This document shows positions 9,318 to 16,941 of a stretch of 20,710 bases of DNA, piece by piece. The first letter of the stretch is position 1, and each line of letters starts with the position of its first letter. The DNA lies in the IMG/VR virus record IMGVR_UViG_3300031656_000046, positions 1-20,710 of that record; one strand, given 5' to 3'. Source of the DNA: a virus. Under the pieces are notes generated by a model. The model had not been told where the DNA came from. It was given only the letters and a program-made list of their open reading frames with translations, and ran no database searches. The position numbers and the translations under genes are program-made.

Positions 9318-9605
9318 TTAAAGTCTCCTAAGTTGGGTTGCGAGGTCCGGAAACCCAGCCTCTTGTATTTTTACATACGTTGTTGTGCGGTCTTCTTTAA
9401 CCGCTACTTTAATATAATGCGTGATGATTTGCAACATCTGTGATTTATACGCCTCCGCTTGCATTCGTATCTCGGGCGGGGCAGAAGTAGACACGCTCAT
9501 TAGCTTGTCTACACACATTTCCGCTACAGCATCAGGGCTGTGCCCTCCTTTGTCAGCGGTATGTATTTTTATGGCGTCAAAGCCAAAATTCATTTCAACT
9601 TGCAT
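9318..9605 (-). CDS. Conserved hypothetical phage protein, 95 aa
   Basis: The protein begins MQVEMNFGFDAIKIHTADKG and continues with HSPDAVAEMCVDKLMSVS, two long helices (IRMQAEAYKSQMLQIITHYI) and a C-terminal KIQEAGFPDLATQLRRL. It looks like a small soluble, mostly helical protein with no transmembrane segment. An in-frame TTG at 9608 precedes the ATG, but the ATG at 9605 overlaps the preceding stop (TGATG) and has GGGAGA upstream, so I chose the ATG. It lies between the SU10-type adaptor and a structural protein, so a head-tail joining or assembly role is possible. I do not recognise a functional family. Confidence 0.75.
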   Translation of the reverse strand: MQVEMNFGFDAIKIHTADKGGHSPDAVAEMCVDKLMSVSTSAPPEIRMQAEAYKSQMLQIITHYIKVAVKEDRTTTYVKIQEAGFPDLATQLRRL

Positions 9606-10243
9606 CAAAGTCTCCCATCTCTGTACTCATCTTGCGCACTCCGTATTTGGACCCCGGTAAGCTGCCCAAGAGCTTCGCTATAGCGAGTAGTATATAATTG
9701 AATAAGGTCTGTCTCACCCTTCATGTATGTGTACGCCTCAATCAGAGAACCATAAAGCAAAGCGGATTCGGCATTGCCGCCGTACCAAGATGTGCTTGTG
9801 GTAACGATTGAAGGCGGGTCGTAATAATAATGTAGTTCAACTACGTAGGTGTCGTCAGGTGTTGGGCCAAGAATAAAGTTGCCTTGCTCCCCACCAAAGT
9901 CTCCGTCAAACTGAGCATAGTACTTGGGTAGGCCCGGTGTCGTGCTCGGTGAAGGGTAGGCCTCTCGTATAAAGTTTACGTCTTTATCAAGAAGGAACGA
10001 ATAGTTTCCAGCCGGGTCTACGACAGCCAAAGAAAACACAGAGAGAAAATCCTCTGGTCTAGCTAAGTACAAGTCACCGTTAGTGGTAGCTGCGGTAACA
10101 TTCCTGCGCAACTCAGGCACCATTATAGAGCGGTTGAGCCGCTCTTCCGACTGTTTGACAAAGTTAGGAATGTTGGAGACGAAGCTTGTCTCCTCATTCT
10201 GTGTATAGTCTTTTATTGCTGCAACCAGCTCTGCGTAGTTCAT
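9605..10243 (-). CDS. Head-tail adaptor protein, SU10-type, 212 aa
   Basis: The N-terminus MNYAELVAAIKDYTQNEE, then FVSNIPNFVKQSEERLNRSI and the LRRN motif match the adaptor proteins I know from SU10-like and many other short-tailed phages. Later landmarks are DLYLARPEDFLSVFSL, a central beta segment with ILGPTPDDTYVVELHYYYDPP, and a helical C-terminus with ESALLYGSLIEAYTYMKGE. The role of the family is to form a ring under the portal, closing the filled head and carrying the tail nozzle. Length is as expected. The gene follows a basic protein and precedes the 95-aa gene, with which it overlaps by one base. A second adaptor-like gene is at 11036-11713. Confidence 0.82.
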   Translation of the reverse strand: MNYAELVAAIKDYTQNEETSFVSNIPNFVKQSEERLNRSIMVPELRRNVTAATTNGDLYLARPEDFLSVFSLAVVDPAGNYSFLLDKDVNFIREAYPSPSTTPGLPKYYAQFDGDFGGEQGNFILGPTPDDTYVVELHYYYDPPSIVTTSTSWYGGNAESALLYGSLIEAYTYMKGETDLIQLYTTRYSEALGQLTGVQIRSAQDEYRDGRL

Positions 10244-10249
10244 CAGAAC

Positions 10250-10714
10250 TTACCCCATTTTAAATTTGCCACCACTAGTAGCCGCACCCATACCACGGCA
10301 TTGGCCGCCGCCGCCCATCTTCTTGACTCCGCCACCGTAACCCATCTTCTTGACCTTAGCTTTGCCACCGTAGTTCATTTTCTTTACTTTAGCTTTGCCG
10401 CCGTAGGACATTTTACCAACGCCATCAGTAGCATAATCAGGAACCATTTTCCCGTTTGGACCTGTAACCATGTTCAGCTTACCACCGCTTTTCAAGCCAA
10501 CAGCTTTTTTAAGCTTCTGCAGTCCTCTTTTTATTCCACGCTCTACTACTGTTGGTGGGTTACGTTCATTTCGCTCTTCTCTAAGTTTTTCTTTGCGTGC
10601 TGCCTCAGATTCACGGAATAAACGTTCTTCTTGCGCCCTAGTCAGGTTAGTGTCGGCACGTTGTCTTTTGCTATCGCCCGGCATTTGGGTCAAAGATTTC
10701 TTATTTTTTTGCAT
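10250..10714 (-). CDS. Basic protein with GGKAKVKKM repeats, 154 aa
   Basis: The N-terminal half is charged and helical (RAQEERLFRESEAARKEKLR), followed by RGIKRGLQKLKKAVGLKSGG. The C-terminal half consists of glycine/lysine/methionine repeats: YGGKAKVKKM twice, then shorter YGGGVKKM and GGGG units. Similar KKM/GGG proteins occur in marine phages with no assigned function. The strongly positive tail suggests binding to nucleic acid or to an acidic protein. An upstream in-frame ATG at 10726 lacks a ribosome-binding site, while the ATG at 10714 has GGAG six bases before it, so I start there. It lies two bases downstream of the 106-aa gene. It is one of five very basic products in this part of the operon. 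Confidence 0.75.
   Translation of the reverse strand: MQKNKKSLTQMPGDSKRQRADTNLTRAQEERLFRESEAARKEKLREERNERNPPTVVERGIKRGLQKLKKAVGLKSGGKLNMVTGPNGKMVPDYATDGVGKMSYGGKAKVKKMNYGGKAKVKKMGYGGGVKKMGGGGQCRGMGAATSGGKFKMG
10334..10399 (-). repeat. Two 33-bp tandem units in the basic protein gene
   Basis: Units at 10334-10366 and 10367-10399 differ at only a few bases and encode the 11-residue repeat containing YGGKAKVKK. A partial, diverged third unit follows from 10400. Confidence 0.8.
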
Positions 10715-10715
10715 A

Positions 10716-11036
10716 CTAATCTCCATCAGTTGTTGTTACAGTGACTCTTCCTACAGAGCCTACCATATATTGCGCTGGGTTCCAAATAGGGTTCCAGCCA
10801 AACAAACCTCTACCCGGATTTACATCTGGACGGGGGTTACGTAAAGATTGGGGGTCTGCTGTGTTAACATCCCCAGTAAAGTTTTGTGGTTGGTCGGGAT
10901 CAAATACGTCTTTGCCTACACGTAGACCTGTACGTACTCCATGCTGAACCTCGTATATAAGGTCTTCTAGCTTGTAGCGAAACCCAGTCCGGTCACATAT
11001 ACCGTATGCGTGTTTACCACTAGCGTAACCCGGCAT
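10716..11036 (-). CDS. Conserved phage protein resembling a degenerate zinc ribbon, 106 aa
   Basis: The protein starts MPGYASGKHAYGICDRTGFR and continues YKLEDLIYEVQHGVRTGLRV, then GKDVFDPDQPQNF. I recall related phage proteins in which this layout carries two CxxC-type pairs (CDRCGFRY ... TGLRVCxDCxDPRHPQ), making a zinc ribbon. Here only the first cysteine remains; the other positions are T, G and V. The rest (residues 55-106) is Pro/Asn-rich and ends in a beta segment, VGRVTVTTTDGD. The ATG shares one base with the stop of the upstream adaptor-like gene (TAATG). The function is unknown. Its place among head-tail joining genes suggests a minor virion component. The comparison with zinc-binding relatives is from memory. 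Confidence 0.72.
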   Translation of the reverse strand: MPGYASGKHAYGICDRTGFRYKLEDLIYEVQHGVRTGLRVGKDVFDPDQPQNFTGDVNTADPQSLRNPRPDVNPGRGLFGWNPIWNPAQYMVGSVGRVTVTTTDGD

Positions 11037-11713
11037 TATACATTCCCCCTAAACGGTACAATACGAAGTGTAGACCTATCTTGATCTTGATCTGCAGCCC
11101 TACGGAATTGTTCCTCATATTCTTGTTTTAAAGGACCAACTCTATCGGCTACTTCAGGTTTTTTCATTGCAACGTAGTACGCTAAACCAGACACAAGAGC
11201 GGGTATAAAACGAGGCGGTATAGAAGTAGTAGCTCCTCCAACACCGCTCGCCAGACCATCTATACCTTTTAGACGGTAATAAGATAGCTTATACGTAGTA
11301 GCATCGTTTGGCACAGGCCAAAGGGTAACTTGTACATTTGTAGCATTGCGCTGTACGTAGATTTGCGATGGACGCCCTTGAGTATTTTTGTTTCCCTGCT
11401 GAGAATACGTAGAAACACTCATGCGTTGTATGTACGAGTCCAGCTGCTGCGGTGTGCCTTCGTCAGTGCGGAGTTGATGTTCTATTAGGTCGATAGTATC
11501 AGAAGGTAACGTATAGGTCGCTGTACCCGCAACTAACGGCAGGGTCCCCGCCTCTATAGTAAATAGGTTCAAGCCGCGATTCTGCCACTCTAGCGTCATA
11601 ATATTAAGACTGCGGCGGGCGGTTTTTAAGTCATACCCCGAACGCATTTCAAGGCCTGCACGTTCGTATGCCTCCTCAAATAATTCATTTAGTTCTGGCA
11701 CAACAACCGCCAT
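11036..11713 (-). CDS. Adaptor / tail-tube-like head-tail joining protein, 225 aa
   Basis: The N-terminal half is helical: PELNELFEEAYERAGLEM, then DLKTARRSLNIMTLEWQNRG, with the 'AR-x-L-x-x-x-x-x-EW-x-x-x-G' pattern seen in P22 gp4-like and T7 gp11-like joining proteins. A beta region follows (GTATYTLPSDTIDLIEHQLR; VQVTLWPVPNDATTYKLSYY). The PPRFIPALVSGLAYYVAMKK helix is a hallmark of this group, and the C-terminal helix carries the KQEYEEQFRRAADQD segment. I infer a dodecameric ring joining the portal to the nozzle. The start codon is preceded by AGGAAGG. It is flanked by basic proteins on one side and the 106-aa protein on the other. Whether it is the first adaptor or a tail-tube subunit cannot be settled here. 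Confidence 0.75.
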   Translation of the reverse strand: MAVVVPELNELFEEAYERAGLEMRSGYDLKTARRSLNIMTLEWQNRGLNLFTIEAGTLPLVAGTATYTLPSDTIDLIEHQLRTDEGTPQQLDSYIQRMSVSTYSQQGNKNTQGRPSQIYVQRNATNVQVTLWPVPNDATTYKLSYYRLKGIDGLASGVGGATTSIPPRFIPALVSGLAYYVAMKKPEVADRVGPLKQEYEEQFRRAADQDQDRSTLRIVPFRGNV

Positions 11714-11716
11714 GAT

Positions 11717-11974
11717 CTAGGCCTTCCTATACTTTGCCGTCTTCTTGGCTATCTTTTTAGGTTGTTTGGCAACCTGTTTACCTTTTTTAGTAGCCGCTCG
11801 TTTAGCCTTGGTAGTAGCAGCGTATTCTTTAGATGACAAAGCTTTTATAGCTTTAGCGGGTAGGTACCGCTCACCTGTAGCCTTTTTCCCTTGCGTCGAC
11901 GGCTTACCAGACTTTGTACGCCATTTCTGCTTAGTCCATTTGCTAAGACTTTTTTGACTTTTTGCTTTTGCCAT
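11717..11974 (-). CDS. Very basic small protein, DUF5872-like, 85 aa
   Basis: I count 29 Lys/Arg and two acidic residues in 85. The motifs SLSKWTKQKWRTKSGKPS, ATGERYLPAKAIKALSSKEY and KQPKKIAKKTAKYRK match a small family found in phages and some large eukaryotic DNA viruses that I believe is DUF5872; the number is from memory. No catalytic residues are apparent. The charge suggests DNA or RNA binding, perhaps inside the virion. The first 32 bases overlap the end of the 63-aa gene in another frame, and both frames are lysine-rich there. AAGG lies upstream of the ATG. Confidence 0.78.
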   Translation of the reverse strand: MAKAKSQKSLSKWTKQKWRTKSGKPSTQGKKATGERYLPAKAIKALSSKEYAATTKAKRAATKKGKQVAKQPKKIAKKTAKYRKA

Positions 11975-12134
11975 CGGCTTTAGCCTTCGCTTTCTTACTC
12001 AAATCTTTATAGTGGGATAACTTAACACTCATTTTACCATGAACTTTCCCCGTATGCATAGTACCATCCTTCATTTTGTGCTTTTCGCCCGCATGAACTG
12101 TACCGTCTTTTTTATAATGTTTTACACCCTTCAC
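11943..12134 (-). CDS. Lys/His-rich small protein with DGT-H-G repeats, 63 aa
   Basis: The gene starts with GTG, overlapping the previous stop as GTGA, and GGAGG lies nine bases upstream. The product has 20 lysines, no arginines and six histidines. Residues about 8-34 hold two copies of a unit KKDGTVHAGEKH / MKDGTMHTGKVHG. The C-terminus is a lysine/alanine/serine tail (KKAKAKADGKSKKSKKS). The regular His spacing could bind a metal, but this is speculative. The tail resembles histone-like basic tails. I know of related short phage proteins with the 'KKDGT' start but no function for them. It is translated between two other basic proteins. Confidence 0.68.
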   Translation of the reverse strand: MKGVKHYKKDGTVHAGEKHKMKDGTMHTGKVHGKMSVKLSHYKDLSKKAKAKADGKSKKSKKS

Positions 12135-12403
12135 GACTTATATCCTCCACCTTTAGCTTTATATTGTTTAGCCAACATTTGCGCTTTACGAGCAGACCAT
12201 TGACCCGGTTTACCACCTTTACCCCCACTTTTAATCTTGTTGAACAATGCCTTACGCATTGTGGGCTTAGTGTAATTACCAGCTTCATTCACACGACTCT
12301 TAGTTTTGCCGCCCTTGCCCATAGCCGCTACAGGTTTACGAGGCACTGCTTTTTTAACTCGGTTGCCTGTAAGTTGTCTTCCCATAGAACTACGTCCCAT
12401 CAT
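12131..12403 (-). CDS. Basic conserved phage protein, 90 aa
   Basis: Motifs include GRSSMGRQLTGNRVKK, GKTKSRVNEAGNYTKPTMRK and GGKPGQWSARKAQMLAKQYK, ending KAKGGGYKS. I see these as a strongly conserved family of marine phage proteins with no assigned function. About a quarter of residues are K or R, with a single acidic residue. The central NEAGNYTKP and QWSARKAQ blocks look like a folded core rather than a simple charged tail. Two adjacent ATG codons (12403 and 12400) are possible starts; AAGGTGG lies upstream. It overlaps the GTG start of the 63-aa gene by four bases. A virion-internal DNA-binding role is plausible but unproven. Confidence 0.75.
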   Translation of the reverse strand: MMGRSSMGRQLTGNRVKKAVPRKPVAAMGKGGKTKSRVNEAGNYTKPTMRKALFNKIKSGGKGGKPGQWSARKAQMLAKQYKAKGGGYKS

Positions 12404-12404
12404 G

Positions 12405-12698
12405 TCAGCATTTCCACCTTTTTCTAGCTTGCCGTAATCGGCTGTTAGGGTCTTTAGCTGCTTTAGGAAATTGCTTCATTTGTCCCGCAGAACGTGCGCA
12501 GTAAGACTTGCGACGCTTAGCTGCAGCGCTTCCCTTTTTAACCTTACCTGTAACGGCTGTCTTTAGTTTAGAGCCGGGGTTATCCCGACGATACTTGGCC
12601 ACACCTTTTTTAGTCATCCCCGCGCCAGACTTAGTTGGGCGTTTTTGACCACCTTTTATGGTGTGACCTTTCATTGTACCTTTTTTCTTAACTGCCAT
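12405..12698 (-). CDS. Highly basic small protein, 97 aa
   Basis: I count 32 Lys/Arg and two Asp in 97 residues, a net charge of about +30. The N-terminus is MAVKKKGTMKGHTIKGGQKR; the second half carries SYCARSAGQMKQFPKAAKDP and ends NSRLRQARKRWKC. The 'S(Y/F)CAR' core plus the RLRQARKRWKC end is a pattern I know from phage proteins of unknown function, some of which I believe are labelled DUF6321. The two cysteines (residues 67 and 97) could pair or bind metal. It heads the run of basic genes downstream of the small structural protein at 12700. Compact basic phage proteins can condense DNA or become incorporated in heads; which applies here is unknown. Confidence 0.75.
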   Translation of the reverse strand: MAVKKKGTMKGHTIKGGQKRPTKSGAGMTKKGVAKYRRDNPGSKLKTAVTGKVKKGSAAAKRRKSYCARSAGQMKQFPKAAKDPNSRLRQARKRWKC

Positions 12699-12699
12699 A

Positions 12700-12984
12700 T
12701 TACTCTATAAGTAGTGTCATTACGTTTCCTGTGCCTGTAAAGGCAGAAACAAAGCAACCGTTATCAGCTAAAATACCATCATTTGGAATGTATACGTCGT
12801 TCCAACCAACAGGTAAAGTTAACTGCAATATAATAGGGCCAGTAGCTGACCCACTACGAATAGTGAAAGCGGCGGCTGCAGCGGCGTTTATTAAAACACC
12901 CTGCAATCTACCTCGTGATGGGCCTACAAGTGCAGCGGTAGCGCTTGCTGCAAAGTTATAAGCTCGTACTTCTTGACCAGCCAT
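12700..12984 (-). CDS. Small beta-rich phage structural protein, 94 aa
   Basis: The sequence begins MAGQEVRAYNFAASATAALV, then RGRLQGVLINAAAAAAFTIR and SGSATGPIILQLTLPVGWND, and ends VYIPNDGILADNGCFVSAFT plus a final strand. The pattern of short beta strands with a 'G-x-L-x-G-V' and 'P-x-x-G-I-L' spacing resembles small proteins that bind capsids or form head fibres in marine phages. There are no charged clusters, in contrast to the genes that follow. An AAGGAG site lies eight bases before the ATG. It is likely a minor virion protein expressed with the 154-aa gene; the precise role is unknown. Confidence 0.7.
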   Translation of the reverse strand: MAGQEVRAYNFAASATAALVGPSRGRLQGVLINAAAAAAFTIRSGSATGPIILQLTLPVGWNDVYIPNDGILADNGCFVSAFTGTGNVMTLLIE

Positions 12985-13606: not shown

Positions 13607-14512
13607 TTACGCTCCCGGAGAACCGTAGATGCCCAATGGGTCGGAAACACCGAAGCTGTAACGCTCACGTGCTTTGTAGCGCACGTTGCCAGTATCGAAG
13701 TCACCATCCATGCCTGTAGCCATCGCAGAACGTACAAAATGTTTCATGCCGTTAGGGATGTCTGTAGTCAAGAACCAAGCGTCAGCGTCTGTAAGGTAGT
13801 GGTTTACACCGTACCCTTCAGGAACTGCACCGTTAGAGCTGAGAGCATTGATGTCGTTATCAGCTGTACCTACACGTAGAGTTGTTTCCAACAAACGAGT
13901 TGCTACGAACTGTAACGCAGACGGGATAATAAGCTTTCTACCGCGAGCTGCGATAAGTAGGCCACGTTCGTCTGTGTATCCCCCAATGTCGATAATCGCC
14001 TGTTCGAGCGAAGTCTCGTTAAGGTCAGCACTAACCGCTGGACGGTTAGCGTTTGTACCGCCACCAACTGTTGGGTGTGCAGTGCTGAACAATGTTACAC
14101 CATCACCAGACTGGAAAGTGTCAAAGCCCGTGTTGAGCAATGAGGCAGCTTTAACCTGCTTGGTGTATGCCATAGCGCGAGCTAAAGCTTTTGTGTAACG
14201 CGAGGACAAAGAATCGTACAAGTTATCTTCCATCGCTTCTTCAGTGATGGCGAAACCCATAGCGATAGTTTCGTGTGTGTAGCGAGCTGTGAACGCCTCT
14301 TGCGCATTATCGTACGCAATAGATGAACCTTCAGCCTTTGTTGGTGCTGCACCAAAACCAGATAATTTAACTTCTTCTTCAAAGCTACGCTCTGAATTTT
14401 CTGTCTCATAAATGTCCGCGTGCTCGTTTTCGTATTTGCCATACTCAAGACCAAAAAGGGCGTTGAGTCCGGGTAAAAGCTCTTTAAGCGCCTGCGCGCG
14501 TGAAATAGCCAT
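13607..14512 (-). CDS. Major capsid protein, 301 aa
   Basis: The start MAISRAQALKELLPGLNALF and the body motifs EVKLSGFGAAPTKAEGSSIA, ARYTHETIAMGFAITEEAME and ALARAMAYTKQVKAASLLN fit the gpT-like / HK97-fold capsid family. Later landmarks are GDGVTLFSTAHPTVGGG, YTDERGLLIAARGRKLIIP, LRVGTADNDINAL, LTDADAWFLTTD and the end RERYSFGVSDPLGIYGSPGA. This is the most confident structural call in the window. There is no N-terminal delta domain, consistent with the separate scaffold gene at 15626-16576. AAGGAGG eight bases before the ATG is the strongest SD in the window, as expected for the most abundant virion protein. The gene is followed by an intrinsic terminator. Confidence 0.95.
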   Translation of the reverse strand: MAISRAQALKELLPGLNALFGLEYGKYENEHADIYETENSERSFEEEVKLSGFGAAPTKAEGSSIAYDNAQEAFTARYTHETIAMGFAITEEAMEDNLYDSLSSRYTKALARAMAYTKQVKAASLLNTGFDTFQSGDGVTLFSTAHPTVGGGTNANRPAVSADLNETSLEQAIIDIGGYTDERGLLIAARGRKLIIPSALQFVATRLLETTLRVGTADNDINALSSNGAVPEGYGVNHYLTDADAWFLTTDIPNGMKHFVRSAMATGMDGDFDTGNVRYKARERYSFGVSDPLGIYGSPGA

Positions 14513-15633: not shown

Positions 15634-16576
15634 TTTGCATATCCTTTAGCTTTTGCGCCGCATATTCTTTATTAGATAATCCGAGGCGCTTGGCGATTGC
15701 GGCCTCCGATGAGGAAATGACAACTTTATTGCGTGATGAGGCAGTATTTCTACCACCCGGGGCCACCACGGAGCCAGCCTTACGTTGTGGTTGTCGAACC
15801 TCGGGTTCCACGTCCGCAAAGCGATCTGGGTATCGAGACCGCATGGCCTCGTTTATCTTACTATAGTACACATCCGTTGTAGAATCAACGCCTGTCTCTA
15901 ATAGTTCTTCATGTACGAGCATAGCGTATCGTGTCATGCTTGTATCTTTCTGGAACCAATCGTTCTCGGCTACCCAATCCTGCGCTTTGCGGTCTGGTTT
16001 AGGAACCCGAGGTGCTGCTTTTGGAGCTTCAGACTGGTCTTGCACAGCCCGTTGCGCCGGTTTCCAGTTCTCTACACGATCAGCTTCCATCTGTAGCTTA
16101 GATAGCGACATCTGTGCTTCGAGCACGGCATCTGTATCTCCAGCCTCATACGCCTCTTTGTAAGCTCGTTTCGCGCTGTTAAGTTCCGATGCTACACGTG
16201 CCTTGGCTTCGTTAACCAGCACGCCTTCACCTTCAGAAAGGTTTTTGCGGAGACGCGTAGCTTCGTTCTTCTGCGATTCAGCGTAATGAACTGCGACTTC
16301 ACGTTCTCGTTCAGCTTCTTCTTTACGGCGACGTTCTTCATGGAACTCGAATTTTAGCTTCTTGATACGCTTCTGTACCGATTCACTGTGCTTTTCAAGT
16401 TCTTCGTCTTCTGGAATATCCGCCTCTGCGTCAGCTGCCCGGCGTGGACGGCCTTTATCTGCGTCTGGAGTATCATCTTCGATCTCCACTTCAAAGTCAC
16501 CGTCGTCGGACATATCTACTTCAACGGTGTCTGTTTCGAGTTCTTCGTTCTCGACTATTGTATTCTTGTCAATCAT
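15626..16576 (-). CDS. Scaffolding protein, 316 aa
   Basis: The N-terminus (about 1-65) is strongly acidic (DMSDDGDFEVEIEDDTPDAD). Residues about 60-175 are a long charged coiled coil (SVQKRIKKLKFEFHEERRRK; EEAEREREVAVHYAE). A conserved segment follows around 205-255 (KAQDWVAENDWFQKD; EELLETGVDSTTDVYYSKIN). The C-terminal helix reads EAAIAKRLGLSNKEYAAQKL. This composition, plus position between portal and capsid, is typical of scaffolds that line the procapsid and leave before packaging. The basic C-terminal helix would bind the capsid protein. The ATG overlaps the stop of the GroES-like gene as ATGA, indicating coupled translation of chaperone and scaffold. No protease domain is visible. Confidence 0.85.
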   Translation of the reverse strand: MIDKNTIVENEELETDTVEVDMSDDGDFEVEIEDDTPDADKGRPRRAADAEADIPEDEELEKHSESVQKRIKKLKFEFHEERRRKEEAEREREVAVHYAESQKNEATRLRKNLSEGEGVLVNEAKARVASELNSAKRAYKEAYEAGDTDAVLEAQMSLSKLQMEADRVENWKPAQRAVQDQSEAPKAAPRVPKPDRKAQDWVAENDWFQKDTSMTRYAMLVHEELLETGVDSTTDVYYSKINEAMRSRYPDRFADVEPEVRQPQRKAGSVVAPGGRNTASSRNKVVISSSEAAIAKRLGLSNKEYAAQKLKDMQNG

Positions 16577-16941
16577 GCTCTGCTATACCCCCGTGGGTCT
16601 TCAACCACCGCTTCAACAGTATCATCGTTGATAATGCGGAACTCTCTGTTGTGTAATTTAAAACGTGTACCTGAATACGAACGGAAGATAATAAAATCAC
16701 CTTTTTCGCACCATGGACCGTCAGGGAAACGTTTTTTGTCTGTATAGGCTCCAGTACCTATACTTATAACATACCCAATAATGGTAGCAGTTTCTTCCAT
16801 CTTGGTTAAAGCATCGGGCATATAAACGCCCCCATCTGTTTTACCCTCAAGTTCTGGGATTGCGATAAGCAGCTTATAACCTTTCGGTTCGGGTAATTTT
16901 GCCAGTAGCTGCTCGTCATCTATTTTGTCGGTAGCGTACAT
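16573..16941 (-). CDS. Phage GroES-like co-chaperonin, 122 aa
   Basis: After a 17-residue N-terminal extension, PKGYKLLIAIPE corresponds to the first strand of GroES. Residues 31-50 (LEGKTDGGVYMPDALTKMEE) correspond to the mobile loop that grips GroEL, with GGVYM in place of E. coli GGIVL. IIGYVISIGTGAY matches the GEVLAVGNG strand. GDFIIFRSYSGTRF (81-94) matches GDIVIFNDGYGVKS, and FRIINDDTVEAVVE (101-114) matches the EVLIMSESDILAIV end. GroES caps the host GroEL chamber; T4 gp31 is a phage substitute that lets GroEL fold the capsid protein. The gene has GGAG before its ATG, sits in the head-assembly operon and overlaps the scaffold start. I am confident of the fold, less so of the client. 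Confidence 0.85.
   Translation of the reverse strand: MYATDKIDDEQLLAKLPEPKGYKLLIAIPELEGKTDGGVYMPDALTKMEETATIIGYVISIGTGAYTDKKRFPDGPWCEKGDFIIFRSYSGTRFKLHNREFRIINDDTVEAVVEDPRGYSRA

Follow-up and report, generated by a model that had tools for sequence, protein, structure and literature searches.

The internal head proteins IPI–IPIII of phage T4, which are small and basic, bind DNA at low salt and are packaged at about 300–370 copies of each (passages of PMC9026906). Among giant viruses, the DNA-bound proteins of chlorella virus PBCV-1 and the protein DVNP are likewise basic, and are virion-borne and DNA-associated or presumed to be so (passages of PMC3281028 and PMC11953307). Here we analyse a marine phage sequence, the 20,710-base virus record IMGVR_UViG_3300031656_000046 (positions 1 to 20,710; hereafter the window), which encodes five small, very basic proteins between positions 10250 and 12698. 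These resemble the T4 internal proteins in size and charge and the giant-virus proteins by property, although the latter belong to different families; the cores of the 97-, 90- and 85-amino-acid (aa) proteins are highly conserved, whereas the T4 proteins are not. The explanation we favour, tentatively and with a little less than even confidence, is that most of this group forms a cassette of nucleic-acid-binding, virion-associated proteins made together with the head and built from a split DUF5872 and a DUF6321 domain. A sequence-only reading of this DNA had proposed a set of five nucleoprotein or internal-head proteins, an interpretation that our analysis partly supports. All five frames exist on the minus strand, and the charges which it had counted for the 97- and 85-aa products, about +30 and +27, are exact on recount (net charge = K+R-D-E). 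The families of the five proteins are denoted B97, B90, B63, B85 and B154.

12405..12698, minus strand: 97-aa protein, net +30, DUF6321 (PF19846) at residues 26-95 (45.2 bits, cut-off 28.5), C-end ...RKRWKC
12131..12403, minus strand: 90-aa protein, net +23, phrog_17747, putative relative of the DUF5872 N half (profile comparison)
11943..12134, minus strand: 63-aa protein, net +15, H/K-rich, GTG start, own small and optional family (open reading frame, ORF)
11717..11974, minus strand: 85-aa protein, net +27, phrog_14910, putative stand-alone relative of the DUF5872 C half (profile comparison)
10250..10714, minus strand: 154-aa protein, net +25, K/G-rich repeats, C-terminal RGMGAA motif, some relatives being LysM proteins (ORF and motif search)

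The 97-, 90-, 63- and 85-aa genes follow one another directly between the major capsid protein (MCP) gene and the nearer of two SU10_adaptor genes, with a spacing of 1 nucleotide (nt) followed by overlaps of 4 nt and 32 nt, and they form a compact cassette encoding small basic proteins. The 154-aa gene lies between the two adaptors, with the 225-aa adaptor and a gene for a 106-aa protein separating it from the cassette, such that the earlier statement that all five genes overlap or abut is true of the first four only. The charge of the five proteins is distinctive, at +0.16 to +0.32 per residue, none of the other genes in a 26-gene comparison of the window exceeding +0.02.

The 90- and 85-aa proteins initially gave matches to unnamed PHROG families only, and neither matches DUF5872 (PF19197; cut-off 27.5 bits, model length 116 positions). 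When the B90 alignment was used to scan the genomes of bacteria and archaea, 218 relatives were returned, 80 of which were kept, some being phage-like contigs in metagenome bins. At 35 of these 80 bacterial loci, the B90 and B85 profiles match a single ORF in the order B90-B85 (E-values of 7e-16 to 1e-24 for B90 and 4e-5 to 1e-26 for B85), and many of these loci come from isolates of Methylobacterium, Sphingomonas, Jannaschia, Palleronia, Aureimonas and further genera. The Pfam DUF5872 model scores such ORFs above its cut-off in loci L375 and L388 and below it in L349, L351, L361 and L365, with no match in L358, L359, L364 and L370. Fused forms also exist in phages: natural B90-B85 fusions occur in L193, L209 and L212, which are near-identical and represent one lineage, and in L251, and the three phage fusions tested align from position 2 or 3 to position 107 or 110 of the 116 in DUF5872, at 20.9–22.2 bits and therefore below the cut-off. 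Because both profiles match one bacterial ORF and the phage fusions align along DUF5872, we assign the 90- and 85-aa genes, on profile evidence, as the separated N and C halves of this domain, which do not pass the Pfam test themselves. The order of the halves is preserved, and the part of the 90-aa protein related to the N half would be its C-terminal ~58 aa (NYTKP...GGKPGQWSARKAQMLA..Y...GGGY). The window differs from the bacterial proteins in having two chains instead of one, and in that its halves lack the Rho_N/SAP or H1-like tail. Together with the DUF6321 assignment of the 97-aa protein, this corrects the earlier view that the genes have no role assigned in the families recognised. A relationship between B90 and B85 by internal duplication was rejected (hhalign 0.2%).

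The bacterial form is unevenly distributed. Among the 59 genomes of the genus to which L387 (titled Methylobacterium symbioticum) belongs, 57 have a long match and 56 of these are full-length, while in the genus of L364 any match is found in 42/61 genomes and a full-length one in 13/61; one genome of the latter genus contains a DUF5872-type gene broken by two stops (G250:C1:99345-99832). A search of one class with A7 found matches in 3/190 genomes, including the centre itself and one weak C-terminal match. Among the neighbours of the bacterial homologues at the 35 loci, no cluster extended beyond six loci, the gene itself and overlapping ORFs aside.

The domains attached to the bacterial homologues provide a link to nucleic acids. 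A pattern search found a Rho_N/SAP-like C-terminal motif in 23 of the 35 fused proteins, with Rho_N above its cut-off in L361, L375 and L388; L365 weakly matches a histone-H1-like family, L347 and L349 have H1-like lysine/alanine-rich tails, and L370 and L383 combine DUF3140 with K/A/G-rich tails. The phage halves are also far more basic, with a median charge per residue of +0.258 for B90 and +0.278 for B85 (168 and 210 distinct segments, respectively) against +0.040 and +0.027 in the bacterial proteins (n=35). These fusion partners suggest, by association, that the 90/85 pair may bind DNA, and it is for this pair that the nucleoprotein role proposed earlier gains indirect support.

Strong conservation argues against the possibility that these are functionless, lysine-rich short ORFs arising by compositional accident, which we regard as extremely improbable. 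Compared with the relative L009, the ratio of non-synonymous to synonymous differences (pN/pS) is 0.027 for the 97-aa, 0.174 for the 85-aa, 0.198 for the 63-aa, 0.294 for the 90-aa and 0.415 for the 154-aa gene; the capsid protein stands at 0.148. Identity between the 97-aa protein and its L009 counterpart is 97%, with synonymous sites near saturation. There are 31 invariant columns across 37 B90 proteins and 29 across 41 B85 proteins. The proteins do have a low-complexity look, and the 154-aa gene is weakly conserved (pN/pS 0.415-0.819 in four comparisons), but purifying selection, synteny and the recognised families exclude a compositional artefact for the 97-, 90- and 85-aa genes, and it persists as an explanation only for parts of the 154-aa protein. 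In relatives L238 and L297 a divergent DUF6321 protein (32-40% identity) takes the place of the 97-aa gene.

The surroundings of the cassette, which the sequence-only reading had placed among head-tail joining genes, are as follows.

13607..14512, minus strand: major capsid protein, bounding the cassette upstream
12700..12984, minus strand: 94-aa neutral protein directly upstream of the 97-aa gene, often kept there
11036..11713, minus strand: 225-aa SU10-type adaptor, bounding the four-gene cassette downstream
10716..11036, minus strand: 106-aa conserved neutral protein between the 225-aa adaptor and the 154-aa gene
9605..10243, minus strand: second SU10-type adaptor (212 aa), located downstream of the 154-aa gene

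Every recognised gene of the window is on the minus strand, in the order terminase, portal, GroES-like gene, scaffold-like gene, capsid genes, basic-gene region and tail fibres. The two adaptors are SU10_adaptor paralogues (64.1 and 88.5 bits), and two such paralogues per neck cluster are also seen in many relatives covering the region. The GroES-like co-chaperonin gene (16573-16941, phrog_3188) lies between the portal and scaffold-like genes, a position kept in many relatives.

We collected 80 loci via the capsid protein, which avoids selecting for the basic genes, and 37 of them span the MCP-adaptor interval. B85 is the commonest cassette member, present in 31 of these intervals, while B90 and B97 are each found in 23 (24 for B90 at E<=1e-3) and B63 in 1; at least one of B97, B90 and B85 is present in 33/37, and B85 accompanies B90 in 23/23. 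To speak of one set of five therefore overstates the constancy of the group, and the 154-aa protein is moreover of another type. ORFs with a charge above +0.15 per residue make up 121 of the 265 between MCP and adaptor as opposed to 25 of the 535 in the rest of these loci, a concentration greater than expected by chance (Fisher p 1.5e-43), with the caveat that these were simple greedy ORF calls picked by length on related contigs that are not independent. A natural B85-B97 fusion occurs in L060, and L110:5761-7125 encodes a 454-aa protein in which B85 is joined to a part resembling a tail tape-measure segment. By eye, several phages (L405:28537-30024, L050:7055-10288, L002:4873-5232 and L001:555-1292) show DUF6321 or B90 chained to a small recurring module, ...YG.K.GE.VFYA...NKG, and to another, DACYHKVKSRY..WPSAYASGALVKCRK, an arrangement that may be read as a toolkit of short basic modules.

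The place of B85 is taken in L286 and L302 by a gene scoring above the DUF5872 cut-off (54.6 and 53.3 bits; positions 39-111 and 46-111). B85 hidden Markov model calls in L001, L286 and L302 (E 1e-12 to 1e-18) at first looked doubtful as A2 missed them, until the genes of L286 and L302 proved to lie above the DUF5872 cut-off; that of L001 scores below it. In the best 80 loci retrieved with the DUF5872-C gene of L286, several of which are near-duplicate contigs, an adaptor follows downstream in 77, a head gene or B97 lies upstream in 64, both are present in 61, and B90 is found in 0/80. Either a DUF5872-C gene stands alone at this slot or, in phages of the type seen in the window, B85 occupies it, in most cases together with B90.

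This exchange of content within a fixed site bears on two other explanations. The MCP-adaptor region might be an accessory cargo site whose basic proteins act in the host cell, by remodelling the nucleoid, protecting entering DNA or countering defence, and are either packaged or simply made late. Variable content would fit such a site: the interval ranges from 1.5 to 8.1 kb in relatives, its slot accepts B90 with B85 or the DUF5872-C subtype, purM is found in this region of HTVC023P, and in HMO-2011 a monooxygenase gene is close to B85. The bacterial homologues are moreover chromosomal, and the T4 internal proteins, basic and packaged, include one (IPI) with an anti-restriction role (passages of PMC9026906). 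We nevertheless consider host takeover unlikely, given that near-invariant cores recur across phages of unlike hosts, a poor fit with an arms race, and that the site is a head-neck one in the 61 loci with both borders. The constancy of the downstream adaptor would instead suit an assembly glue, in which the proteins attach not to DNA but to acidic surfaces of the capsid, portal or adaptor, and help the neck to form or the head to be completed; the head and neck proteins are indeed acidic (net -65 for the portal, -15 for the MCP and -14 for the second adaptor). We judge this rather improbable, as the chromosomes of ordinary bacterial isolates encode homologues with nucleic-acid-type attachments, and other phages have the genes with no adjoining adaptor gene as far as annotation shows.

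Returning to the favoured explanation of a nucleic-acid-binding, virion-associated cassette, evidence for a place in the particle comes from DUF6321. The 97-aa protein shares this domain, above the curated Pfam cut-off, with cyanomyovirus proteins of the T4-GC119 type, and 39/40 members of its alignment (A3) match the family at E-values up to 10. The window copy is free-standing in a head-neck operon, whereas the cyanomyovirus domain forms the C-end of larger proteins (165-517 aa) near terminase genes. One such protein, S-CREM2 ORF137 (108049-109521), was recovered in the virion proteome with 4 unique peptides and 4.1% coverage (as tabulated in PMC10665884), and carries DUF6321 at 109291-109512 (44.7 bits). 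Mass spectrometry (MS) of S-SCSM1 virions found 45 proteins (passages of PMC9602691), and its DUF6321 protein SSCSM1_29 is annotated as a 'virion protein', a tag that appears on 48 S-SCSM1 coding sequences, including three non-structural proteins which the paper names as detected. We infer that the tag denotes MS detection, a reading which is no firmer than that because 48 tagged sequences stand against 45 reported proteins, and the S-SCSM1 DUF6321 protein is thus probably in the virion. A module shared by SSCSM1_29 and four relatives matches B85 (hhalign 96.2% versus <=2.7% in 30 column shuffles), and gives <=1.5% against seven other families. Kinship of DUF6321 itself with B85, B90, B63 or the 106-aa family was rejected (hhalign <=1.1%), and a likeness of the 97-aa family to ribosomal protein eS30 was not accepted (E 0.11). 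DUF6321 gave no match in plasmids, nor in 190 bacterial genomes of one class, where the control also matched nowhere so that absence is not established. Literature searches found no paper for DUF6321 and one for DUF5872, the papers listed by further searches included none on these families, and no virion data were found for this phage or near relatives.

The N-terminus of the S-SZBM1 DUF6321 protein, SSZBM1_192, is similar to a capsid-targeting sequence (CTS), resembling the capsid-targeting leader of T4 internal proteins, which the prohead protease cleaves. CTS-like N-termini (MKTFKQY.., MQTFSMF.., MKTFKQF.. and MKSFLQF..) occur in cyanophage proteins at L490:2342-2839, L491:502-1215, L407:44203-44535 and L408:39819-41048, and two of these proteins, S-CREM2 ORF136 and S-SCSM1 ORF91, are in the published virion proteomes.

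Most of the cassette proteins are probably folded. The fused pair from L209 is predicted as six helices with a predicted local distance difference test (pLDDT) score of 84.3, and among viral predicted structures it weakly matches a DUF5872 protein of the haptophyte virus CeV-01B (E 0.047); the pLDDT of the 97-aa model is only 73.

Several observations weigh against the favoured explanation. The PDB yielded no useful match for either model (for the fused pair, a best Foldseek E of 7.2 and a single VIA-align 2 row, Z 2.5 over 38 residues; for DUF6321, no Foldseek match). Rho_N falls below its cut-off in L364 and L359, and neither Rho_N nor SAP is found in the five window proteins at E-values up to 0.1. 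Cassette membership varies between relatives across the 37 intervals, and HMO-2011 and CRP-1 have their B85 and B90 genes at another site, close to the genes for lysis and terminase. The virion evidence is itself mixed: SSZBM1_192 is a clear DUF6321 protein that is missing from the 30-protein S-SZBM1 virion table (as given in PMC9146016), and S-SM1 SSM1_115 and Syn9 gp114 have no structural label, such that the five cyanophages checked comprise one positive by table, one by tag, one negative and two unlabelled. A 'structural protein' label in S-B43 was set aside as it is not borne out by S-SM1 and Syn9. The authors of both the S-SCSM1 (PMC9602691) and S-CREM2 studies caution that MS positives may be contaminants, and cyanomyoviruses are only distantly comparable with this phage. 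Finally, according to the introduction of PMC3281028, no evidence exists for a large contribution of basic proteins to the neutralisation of phage dsDNA. The internal-head role suggested earlier consequently finds indirect support for DUF6321 in S-CREM2 and S-SCSM1, and is opposed by the S-SZBM1 list, S-SM1 and Syn9.

The 154-aa protein is of a different kind. Its gene has an alternative ATG 12 nt upstream, at 10726, which would give 158 aa. Across the loci searched, 54 ORFs (47 distinct), mostly basic and of several kinds, terminate in its RGxGAA motif, and LysM scores above its cut-off in four of these proteins (L227, L233 and two in L137). LysM binds peptidoglycan. In view of this binding, and of the recurrence of the motif in proteins with LysM, DNA packing is no likelier than a function in the tail or in entry, and the 154-aa protein probably stands apart from the cassette as a component of the neck/tail or entry machinery.

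We envisage that the four consecutive genes are probably expressed late with the surrounding head genes. The 90- and 85-aa proteins would be DUF5872 halves made as separate chains, shifted to strong positive charge and perhaps acting together, and the 97-aa protein would supply, as DUF6321, the module that ends virion-associated cyanophage proteins. The cassette proteins would bind nucleic acid and be taken into the particle along with the DNA, coming to lie within the head or on its neck side. There they could neutralise or order part of the DNA, and they may leave with it at ejection. A bolder proposal, which we think doubtful, is that the tailed phages of this marine group package their genomes with dedicated nucleoproteins, comprising a bacterial chromatin-like DUF5872 split into two supercharged chains together with DUF6321. 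If true, proteins would assist the packing of phage DNA as they do in giant algal viruses, something for which phages were said to offer no evidence.

These assignments give a testable identity to protein families that lacked an assigned function and are abundant in marine phage contigs (at least about 600 matching stretches in viral scans), and DUF5872 would join phage, bacterial-chromosome and probably giant-virus proteins. They also open to experiment the question of whether basic proteins help tailed phages to hold their DNA, and a direct test is worthwhile because PMC3281028, in its introduction, sees no evidence of substantial neutralisation of phage DNA by such proteins. If the five proteins were each present at ~300 copies, as in T4, their summed charge of +120 would by simple arithmetic provide ~36,000 positive charges, a number equal to nearly 30% of the phosphates in a 60-kb genome.

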